Below, one piece after another: positions 14,394 through 16,707 of a stretch of DNA of 39,654 bases. Under the pieces are notes generated by a model, which worked only from the letters and a program-made list of their open reading frames with translations, made no database searches and had not been told where the DNA came from. This DNA is from an uncultured Lachnospiraceae bacterium (lineage in GTDB: Bacteria; Bacillota; Clostridia; Lachnospirales; Lachnospiraceae). Every line of letters starts with the position of its first letter. Position 1 is the first letter of the stretch. A program made the position numbers and the translations under genes. The stretch spans positions 1-39,654 of the forward strand of contig CALWSC010000094.1 in NCBI GenBank assembly GCA_944384105.1, given 5' to 3'.

Positions 14394-15055
14394 GTCAGGA
14401 AGCCGGCATGCTGCATCTTTCTCAGAACCTGCTGCTGGCGTTCTCTGGCAAGCCGGGGATTATCAATGGGATTGTACACGGACGGGGCGTTGGGGACTCC
14501 TGCCAGCAGAGTCGCCTCGTCATCCGTCATCTCAGCCGGCGGCTTCTTAAAATACCCATAACTCGCATCCCATACACAGTAATATCCATTCCCAAAATAA
14601 ATGGAATTCAGGTACAGCTCCAGAATTGTATCCTTATCATACGTCTTTTCAATGTCAAAGGCCATGAACATCTCAGAAACCTTGCGGAACAGATTTTTGT
14701 CCTGGGTGAAGAACTGATTCTTGGCAAGCTGCTGCGTAATTGTGCTTCCTCCCTCAACAAATGCCCTGGCCTGAATATCGTGAATCAGCGCACGCCCGAT
14801 AGCAATCGGATCAATGCCAAAGTGCTTATAGAACCGCTTATCTTCAACCGAGAGCACCGCATCGATGTAAATATCCGGAAGGTCATCAAGCCTGGTATAG
14901 TGTTCCTGCGACTGAATCCTTTCACCCATTTCCTCTACACTCATAACCTCAAGCGCATCCCGGTAGCCCTCATATCCTTTATAAACCACAAAGCCGCCGC
15001 TGATCAGAAAGAGCAGCAGAAGTGCTGTTACAAGACGTCTGATGATTTTTCGCAT
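14390..15055 (-). CDS. Monofunctional peptidoglycan glycosyltransferase (GT51)
   Basis: About 221 residues. An N-terminal membrane anchor (residues 5-28) is followed by a GT51 domain with the catalytic Glu in SVEDKRFYKHFGID (E71) and the conserved GGSTITQQLAKN and ELYLNSIYFGNG motifs. There is no transpeptidase domain, so it polymerises lipid II into glycan strands without cross-linking. ATG 15055 is preferred over an in-frame ATG nine codons upstream because AAAGGAT lies at good distance before it. A TATACT -10-like box lies at 15126-15131 on this strand. It is convergent with the LD-carboxypeptidase gene, another wall-related enzyme. Confidence 0.92.
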   Translation of the reverse strand: MRKIIRRLVTALLLLFLISGGFVVYKGYEGYRDALEVMSVEEMGERIQSQEHYTRLDDLPDIYIDAVLSVEDKRFYKHFGIDPIAIGRALIHDIQARAFVEGGSTITQQLAKNQFFTQDKNLFRKVSEMFMAFDIEKTYDKDTILELYLNSIYFGNGYYCVWDASYGYFKKPPAEMTDDEATLLAGVPNAPSVYNPIDNPRLARERQQQVLRKMQHAGFLT

Positions 15056-15218
15056 ATCGCACCATCCTTTTCTTTCGTGCATGCCATGACAGGCATACGG
15101 TATCGTTCTCCTGTTTACGGCTTTTAGTATACAGGATTTGCGGTGCAGCTTCTATGGGATTTTCCTTACAGTTTTTTGGCAGTCTCTTACATTTTTGTAA
15201 GGCAAAAGAGAAGAGGGG

Positions 15219-16301
15219 TTACTTCTTTCCTGTCTCTGCTGGCGGCTCTTCACGCAGTTTTACCGCAGATGCAGCCATCCTGCGTCTGGCATCATCCATG
15301 GCTGCGTAGTGCTTTTTTGTGGTATTGACATCTTTATGCCCCAGAACATCAGCCACGAGGTAAATATCACCCGTCTCATGATAGAGTGCTGTACCGTATG
15401 TGCTTCGCAGCTTATGAGGCGTAATTTTCTTCGTGGTTGTAACTTCCCTGGCATATTTCTTTACCAGATTTTCCACTGCTTTGACACCAATGCGTTTTCT
15501 TTGGGCAGAGTAGAAGAGTGCGTGTTCATGCCCGGTGACAGGGGTAATTGTTTCACGAACTTCGAGATAATTTTTCAGCGCCTTCTCGACTTCGGGACCA
15601 AAGTAGATGATCATCTCATTTCCGCCTTTTCTTGTGACCTTGATGCCGTCATTTTTAAAGTCCACGTCTTCCACATCGAGTCCGACACATTCCGACACAC
15701 GGATTCCAGTGCCGAGCAGAAGAGTAACAATGGCGATGTCACGTTCTTTATTCTTTTCATAATATACTTTTCGTTGACCTGTCAAGTATTCCCCGCAGTT
15801 CTCCATGTAGTCAAGCAGCAGTGCAACCTCGTCGACGTCGAGACGAATAATAGCCTTATCGTGAATCTTAGGCATATCAATAAGAACCGTGGGATTTGTC
15901 TGAATTGCTTCACGTTTGTAGAAATAGGCATAGAAGCTGCGAAGCGCGGACAATTTCCGTTTTAAACCGCGTTCGCCGTTTGTAACAACCTGGTTGTCTG
16001 TGTCTTTGTAAAGCTTGAGATATTCCATATATTCCTCAATATCCACGGATTTGAGCTGATCGAGAACGTCAACAGTAAATTGATCCATAGAATAGTTATG
16101 AAACAGAGGATTTTCGTCAATCAGGAACTGAAAGAAAATTCGGATGTCATAGGCATAGGAAATTCTGGTTTTTGTCGTTGTGGTTGCTTCGATGGCCCGA
16201 AAATAATCGCGCGCAAATACAGGAAGGCTTTTTAAGACTTCACGGAGCTTTAAAATATTTTCCCTGTCAGTCTGTTCGTGATAAGTAGTGCGTTTGTCCA
16301 T
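15219..16301 (-). CDS. xerS: Tyrosine recombinase, XerS-like
   Basis: A 360-residue tyrosine recombinase. The N-terminal SAM-like core-binding domain spans about residues 25-135. The catalytic domain has the full set: Arg201 (GTGIRVSE), Lys225, His296 and Arg299 (PHKLRS), His322 (LGHKD) and nucleophile Tyr332 (KHYAAMDD). The length and the N-terminal extension fit XerS, the single recombinase that resolves chromosome dimers in streptococci, better than XerC or XerD. No excisionase, attachment core duplication or phage gene lies nearby, which argues against a mobile-element integrase. The ATG has AAAGGAA upstream. A dif-like palindrome lies about 90 bp upstream of the start, as in the streptococcal xerS-difSL arrangement. 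Confidence 0.85.
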   Translation of the reverse strand: MDKRTTYHEQTDRENILKLREVLKSLPVFARDYFRAIEATTTTKTRISYAYDIRIFFQFLIDENPLFHNYSMDQFTVDVLDQLKSVDIEEYMEYLKLYKDTDNQVVTNGERGLKRKLSALRSFYAYFYKREAIQTNPTVLIDMPKIHDKAIIRLDVDEVALLLDYMENCGEYLTGQRKVYYEKNKERDIAIVTLLLGTGIRVSECVGLDVEDVDFKNDGIKVTRKGGNEMIIYFGPEVEKALKNYLEVRETITPVTGHEHALFYSAQRKRIGVKAVENLVKKYAREVTTTKKITPHKLRSTYGTALYHETGDIYLVADVLGHKDVNTTKKHYAAMDDARRRMAASAVKLREEPPAETGKK

Positions 16302-16337
16302 GATGAAAAATTCCTTTCTTTATTAATTATAAAAAAT

Positions 16338-16447
16338 GAGTGATCCGGTGTAAAATCAGAATTCGGACCTCGGTAGGAAGGTCTGGAAATCTATTCGCCA
16401 AACACATGTTTTTCGAATAGATGACTGTATTTTACCACAGATCACTC
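16338..16447. repeat. Long imperfect inverted repeat upstream of xerS
   Basis: Outer arms of 19 bp: GAGTGATCCGGTGTAAAAT at 16338-16356 and its imperfect reverse complement at 16429-16447 (16 of 19 match). Inside sits the 34-bp palindrome 16389-16422. The left half carries about 26 extra bases (roughly 16362-16387) with their own small hairpin, GACCT 16366-16370 and AGGTC 16379-16383. The region 16302-16718 contains no gene; from 16448 to the anti-sigma terminator it is AT-rich and I see nothing definite. Confidence 0.7.
16389..16422. other. Candidate dif site (difSL-like) for XerS
   Basis: Left arm ATCTATTCGCCAAAC (16389-16403), 4-nt centre ACAT, right arm GTTTTTCGAATAGAT (16408-16422). Thirteen of 15 arm positions are symmetric. 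Read on the minus strand, the first arm ATCTATTCGAAAAAC differs at two positions from the start of streptococcal difSL as I remember it (ATCTTTCCGAAAAAC). Position next to xerS matches the known arrangement. Alternative: an operator for the recombinase promoter; the core 16399-16412 also matches 12 of 14 positions of the Bacillus-type LexA box. Confidence 0.55.
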
Positions 16448-16707
16448 TTCAAAGCAACCAAAAAACGTTGAGTTCCGGGATTTTCACTTTTTCATGTTTT
16501 TTGATGTATTTGCAGGCTATTTTCCATCCTCTTCCGCAATCAATATTTATGTTGTAACAGACTGCAGAACTTTGCATTTGCCGCAATACGGATTGCATCT
16601 TATTATTTTCATGTACAGAATCTTGTTCCTAAATCAGCCATCGGCTGGCAAATTGTTTTCTGCCTATGAAATAAATCACAATTTATACCTACAAATGTAG
16701 AAAACAA

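Follow-up and report, generated by a model that had tools for sequence, protein, structure and literature searches.

What is the function of a near-symmetric palindrome that lies directly upstream of a tyrosine recombinase gene in an uncultured Lachnospiraceae bacterium? The window, by which we mean the whole stretch of DNA analysed (39,654 nucleotides of contig CALWSC010000094.1, assembly GCA_944384105.1), encodes a predicted XerS-like tyrosine recombinase of 360 amino acids on its minus strand (15222-16301; stop codon 15219-15221). Upstream of the ATG at 16301, across a gap of 87 bp, lies a 34-bp dif-like candidate recombination site (16389-16422, no strand assigned; ATCTATTCGCCAAACACATGTTTTTCGAATAGAT) with two imperfect inverted arms and a short asymmetric centre. 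A sequence-only reading had described a near-palindrome here with 13 of 15 arm positions symmetric, about 90 bp from the recombinase start, and both descriptions were accurate. No other 34-mer in the window reached 13 symmetric arm positions out of 15. When folded as a single strand, the palindrome did far better than its own shuffles (z -6.5 and -7.1), and its letters were identical in the window and both congeners (3/3). In the genome of origin, a draft of 2.93 Mb in 123 contigs that is 78% complete, a 24-position palindrome pattern with up to three mismatches matched this place only, whereas a looser 28-base pattern with two mismatches matched one more (G000:C42:792-819), at a level where control matches were common; uniqueness in the genome thus held for the first pattern but not for the second. 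We consider it very probable that the palindrome serves as dif, the site of chromosome dimer resolution, and that the XerS-like protein encoded next to it is the recombinase acting there. As a conclusion drawn from sequence, the presence of a dif-type site beside an XerS-like recombinase at the terminus is well supported, by conservation beside orthologues, a switch of GC skew and co-occurrence across genomes.

Conservation was assessed in 80 named-record loci carrying the recombinase (the best 80 of 586), whose titles were mostly Lachnospiraceae or genera placed there, some only Clostridia, and one Oscillospiraceae. Using a 34-column matrix refined on these loci, 75 of the 80 had a site that outscored every reversed-sequence control (maximum 11.2), and in 64 the matching 34-mer lay no more than 300 bp upstream of the start of the recombinase match. 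The palindrome is therefore conserved upstream of xerS homologues, a check that the sequence-only reading had proposed, and it is adjacent to the gene, as in the XerS/difSL module. Since the refined matrix had been trained on the same loci, we repeated the search without training sites that differed from the tested site by six changes or fewer. Again 75 of 80 loci exceeded the best control (11.7) and 64 sites were within 300 bp, where placement alone predicts 1.6. With an earlier 16-seed matrix, 53 of the 80 exceeded the best control (20.3) and 70 a second control (16.2), and the two matrices agreed on site placement in 73 of 75 loci. No site was found in five of the 80, three of which (L131, L172, L185) offer only 115, 291 and 1 base of upstream sequence; the other two (L135, L184) retain the recombinase with no site in 10 kb of upstream sequence.

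The 76 flanked sites, window included, comprised 44 distinct 34-mers. AAA (positions 12-14) and TTT (21-23), six bases apart, were invariant in all 44 cores, and two position pairs co-varied: 15/20 (CG in 29, TA in 8) and 2/33 (TA in 34, AT in 5). Conservation had a sharp edge, with 1.5 and 1.7 bits at positions 1 and 34 and approximately zero at their outer neighbours. Outside the 34 bp, some information was seen at three positions immediately ahead of the site (0.6-0.7 bits) and at a single position ten bases beyond it (0.8 bits), so that strong conservation was almost confined to the 34 bp. This pattern would fit two recombinase subunits bound to arms of 14-15 bp. Near-palindromes were usual among the 44 cores, and the earlier description of the window site's symmetry as unusual was not supported. 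Site orientation relative to the gene was plus in 65 and minus in 10 of 75 loci (minus in the window); orientation relative to the terminus is uninformative because the terminus is symmetric.

By GC skew, the site lies at the replication terminus, another feature shared with the XerS/difSL module. The predicted terminus region of the window (14495-16422, no strand) extends from the cumulative GC-skew maximum at 14,495, which is 1.9 kb from the site, and includes a switch of the prevailing strand of long open reading frames. In a one-contig genome sampled all round (G057), the sign of the skew went from positive to negative in the interval 2.14-2.30 Mb, and in a scan reaching 100 kb to either side the peak (2,281,484) was 157 bp from the site (2,281,641); in G007 the distance was 1.0 kb. 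Sixty loci had 4 kb of sequence to either side of the site; 48 of them switched from positive to negative there, none showed the reverse, and 12 fell under the 0.03 rule and were scored as undecided. The median distance from peak to site was 1,041 bp, with 42 of 48 peaks within 2 kb. Site and gene were separated using every genome from the site-pattern searches of the 61 relatives and the 293 Clostridia in which they lay more than 4 kb apart on one contig, leaving out closer pairs such as those of G005 (3.6 kb), G041 (2.9 kb) and G098 (2.6 kb). In seven such genomes, with site and gene 4.2-27.7 kb apart, the distance from skew peak to site was 19, 34, 142, 390, 408, 1,282 and 3,418 bp, and that from skew peak to recombinase gene 4.3-28 kb; in an eighth (G048), where the gene lies 52 kb away, peak and site were 29 bp apart. 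The skew peak thus follows the site when the gene is elsewhere, indicating that the site and not the gene marks the terminus, and the predicted position of the palindrome at the skew switch was confirmed. As a candidate FtsK-orienting motif, the heptamer GAAGAAG pointed toward dif 57 times against 12 in G057 and 121 against 25 in G007; other purine-rich octamers were equally skewed, and gene strand bias alone could give this result.

The distribution of site and recombinase was also correlated. Recombinase matches at E<=1e-60 were present in 54 of 293 Clostridia, 40 of them outside the order of the window. The site pattern with one mismatch was found in 18 of the 293 (backwards control, 5 of 293), and 17 of these 18 also had the recombinase, the exception being G210 (Fisher p 4.9e-13, or 2.5e-12 without the genome of origin). 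Besides that genome, 16 had both site and recombinase, 13 with the two on one contig and 10 with them within 1 kb. The remaining 37 of the 54 recombinase-bearing Clostridia had no site match at one mismatch. Allowing two mismatches, the search became noisy, with the pattern in 46 of 61 relatives and the backwards control in 27. Judged by these matches, the recombinase/dif system spans Clostridia, which extends beyond what the sequence-only reading had suggested.

The alternative that survives best is that the palindrome acts purely as an operator for the recombinase gene, bound by the recombinase or another regulator, and is not a recombination site. It draws on a promoter survey of the 67 loci with a site within 300 bp of the gene (including the window and two congeners), in which 53 had a promoter-like sequence with a score of at least 10, compared with 2.65 for shuffled flanks; with a looser score, such sequences also appeared in 65% of shuffled regions. 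Of the 53, 48 fell into two registers relative to the site: in 26 the -35 lay between -48 and -27 relative to the site, with the predicted start close to the edge of the site (16 distinct cores), and in 22 the -35 lay at site position 33-37, abutting the site (10 distinct cores); the other five lay elsewhere. As these registers were defined after the first survey, more weight falls on the excess of promoters. An operator does not, however, explain why the eight genomes with the site 4-52 kb from the gene keep it at the skew peak, and 17 of the 18 Clostridia matching the site pattern at one mismatch had a single match. We regard a purely regulatory role as improbable.

A dif site, the reading we prefer, could nevertheless double as an operator. 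The position of the site in one of two preferred promoter registers suggests autorepression of the recombinase gene by its product at dif, since in either register the bound recombinase would hinder RNA polymerase. In the window, the candidate xerS promoter (16429-16457, minus strand) has a -35 of TTGCTT (16452-16457), a 17-bp spacer and an extended -10, TGG-TAAAAT (TAAAAT at 16429-16434), and its predicted start falls close to the first base of the palindrome. Its register is class A of the other loci, and with boxes placed and scored by hand it scored 9, compared with 10 and 11 in the same register of congeners L003 and L004. A second promoter-like sequence between site and gene (16326-16354, minus strand; TTTACA at 16349-16354, 17 bp, TATAAT at 16326-16331) had the window's best score of 11 and was absent in this form from the congeners. 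The weakness of the class A promoter, with the best one nearer the gene, argues against the window being a clean case of autorepression.

A second alternative is that the palindrome is the attachment site of an integrated mobile element and the recombinase its integrase. A tyrosine recombinase beside a short palindrome has this appearance, and relatives of the recombinase are found on plasmids as well as in two phage records that are unverified. Against this, recombinase matches at E<=1e-80 were found in 56 of the 61 genomes of the relatives set (genome of origin counted), and recombinase and site sit together at the skew switch in loci that are 61-82% alike. Two narrow 32-base dif patterns gave no matches in viral contigs, and the draft genome of origin held no second strong site. 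An attachment site is thus very unlikely, still more so than a pure operator. The phage records (MT835555.1, L270:8118-8151; MT835478.1, L271:8623-8656; both unverified 'Bacteriophage sp.') encode recombinases of 72% and 59% identity with a strong upstream dif-like site, and are probably misfiled bacterial terminus DNA.

The palindrome is nested in a larger inverted repeat, whose arms (16338-16356 and 16429-16447, no strand) are complementary at 16 of 19 positions, as the sequence-only reading had noted; this level was reached by 0 of 400 shuffles of both flanks. The second arm shares bases with the candidate promoter, in its spacer and -10. In the two congeners the arms paired at 7/19 and 5/19 in the register of the window, and at fewer than 15 in any register, whereas the overlapped promoter was kept despite the lost pairing. 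As the outer repeat has been lost in both congeners, it is no conserved part of the module, and the proposal that it is an accessory or regulatory element was not borne out; on this comparison, it belongs to the window sequence and not to the lineage. Flanking arms of 16/19 were seen among 78 loci in the window and L116 only. We gave next to no credence to a further reading, that the nested repeat forms a three-way-junction RNA leader of the recombinase mRNA, and rejected it because Rfam returned three matches far below gathering scores (E 2.6-8) and the outer stem is not conserved in the two congeners, although the 116-nt stretch does fold (z -6.4 on the strand of the gene and -5.7 on the opposite one); its 5' outer arm would moreover be untranscribed if transcription starts from the candidate promoter at 16429-16457.

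The tyrosine recombinase catalytic set (R, K, HxxR, H/W, Y) was complete in all eight aligned members of the recombinase family. R201, K225, H296, R299, H322 and Y332, which we take to be the catalytic residues, were invariant among them. All eight matched the XerS model (NCBIfam NF003462, an equivalog with a curated cut-off of 267 bits). The window protein scored best against XerS (207.3 bits), followed by XerC (169.2), archaeal XerA (163.3) and XerD (154.5), each below the cut-off of its own family; its designation as XerS-type was therefore right as to the nearest family, but the protein misses the XerS cut-off. In a tree of 39 proteins, built without XerH, the window protein grouped with 20 clostridial relatives, two proteins annotated as XerS from plasmids (of Streptococcus salivarius and Lactobacillus) and four plasmid recombinases, while E. 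coli XerC and XerD and ten XerD of the relatives lay on the other side of a split with 100/99 support; the program flagged long branches and most inner forks were weak. One genome (G005) has two XerS-type genes 2.8 kb apart (C2:103222-104241 and 107061-108098), with a dif-like site at 99612.

Excerpts of the literature describe XerS/difSL for streptococci and lactococci (PMC5357621, PMC2731167, PMC3025954) and assign XerCD to almost every other bacterium, including Firmicutes (PMC5357621; PMC3025954). In its excerpt, PMC3025954 mentions a Lactobacillus helveticus XerS for which no site was found, and limits dif prediction to genomes with XerCD orthologues. The clostridial system resembles XerS/difSL in having a single recombinase (356 residues in XerS, 360 in the window) associated with a dif-like terminus site. 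As had been proposed for the minus-strand arm, the window half-site resembles the left arm of difSL as quoted in the excerpt of PMC5357621, TTTCCGAAAA. The sites differ in length and centre: difSL is described there as 31 bp with an 11-bp centre, whereas the window site has 34 bp and a short centre. By these review descriptions, the six-base spacing of AAA and TTT in 44 of 44 cores likewise departs from the 31-bp, 11-bp-centre form. The window protein is also only 32% identical to the XerS of the Streptococcus salivarius plasmid. Because the protein is below the XerS cut-off and the site differs from difSL, we refer to an XerS-like/dif module. XerH/difH of Helicobacter and Campylobacter, as outlined in the excerpts of PMC2731167 and PMC5357621, similarly combines a single recombinase of similar size with a site often near the gene and a hexanucleotide centre; however, XerH comes from a different phylum and was tenth of 11 structure matches to the window protein (46.5 bits, compared with 100.7 for XerA). 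Among the matches listed (titles and abstract openings, with most subscription journals outside the scope), no report of XerS-like/dif in Lachnospiraceae, Lachnospirales, Clostridia, Firmicutes, Blautia or Dorea was found.

XerCD/dif of Escherichia coli and Bacillus subtilis shares with the module a two-arm terminus site with a short centre, a tyrosine recombinase and the presence of FtsK. It differs in that the tree parts its E. coli proteins from the window group (100/99, long branches flagged), and in the apparent lack of XerC and of a standard dif. No XerC scored above cut-off in the 61 genomes, a cut-off passed by only 2 of 14 control genomes. A 22-base search pattern for the standard 28-bp dif, which we take to represent the Firmicutes dif, gave no match with up to three mismatches in the 78%-complete genome of origin. 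Across the 61 genomes this pattern gave 48 matches compared with 59 for the control, and we rejected a standard dif on this count; G059 had a match with one mismatch and also a XerD, and some relatives may have a second Xer system. XerD-type genes above cut-off were present in 20 of the 61 relatives, including both congeners, where the gene is whole (G001:C62, G002:C66). The match in the genome of origin (G000:C87:4224-4766) reaches the end of contig 87 (4,768 bases), which indicates a gene cut by the assembly. A lone XerD thus appears to coexist there with the XerS-like/dif module. The sequence-only reading had proposed a single-recombinase system, to be refuted by separate XerC/XerD with a standard dif; one XerS-like enzyme is indeed linked to the site, with no XerC above cut-off and no standard dif in the genome of origin, but the enzyme appears not to be the only Xer protein. 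In B. subtilis, XerD is cited as unloading SMC at dif, according to an excerpt of PMC13342612, and by analogy SMC unloading is a possible reason to keep a lone XerD.

From these data we infer binding, cleavage, control by FtsK and dimer resolution as follows. Each site would hold two identical recombinase subunits, one per arm, and four subunits would bring together the two dif sites of a chromosome dimer. Exchange of strands within the short, asymmetric centre, presumably activated at the septum by FtsK (an FtsK with a gamma domain is encoded), would then yield two monomers. We tentatively extend this to a broader model, which we consider possible but somewhat short of probable: most Lachnospiraceae and several other clostridial families would use one XerS-like recombinase and a near-symmetric 34-bp dif that doubles as operator, so that the enzyme is self-metered by site occupancy, and some, lacking XerC and a standard dif, would keep a lone XerD for another task at the terminus such as SMC unloading. 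If this is true, many Clostridia, gut Lachnospiraceae included, use a one-enzyme system instead of XerCD, and the site gives an exact mark of the terminus in such genomes. The module would also serve to study the order in which a single recombinase carries out two strand exchanges when its site is nearly symmetric, and would allow the idea of dif as an operator to be tested. The role of a lone XerD in Clostridia would become a question in its own right.

Related sites were also seen on plasmids. The Streptococcus salivarius plasmid NZ_CP018188.1 has a clostridial-type site, ATCTATTCGGAAAATAAGTATTTGTTGAATACAC (L267:1406-1439), 55 bp upstream of the annotated XerS start; XerS/dif modules of their own may be present on large plasmids. 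Plasmids of Jeotgalibacillus (L274:600-633) and Brevibacillus (L275:1827-1860) have weak dif-like palindromes with TTCCGAAAA arms near XerS-related recombinases; these scored 10.1 and 2.4, under the control maximum of the refined matrix. Some genomes have more than one site, which counts against the dif reading; one of the same order as the window (G053) has five dif-like sites (C81:3540-3696, C221:748-1035 and C227:7628-7655), including two pairs 130 and 260 bp apart, possibly from elements that use dif.
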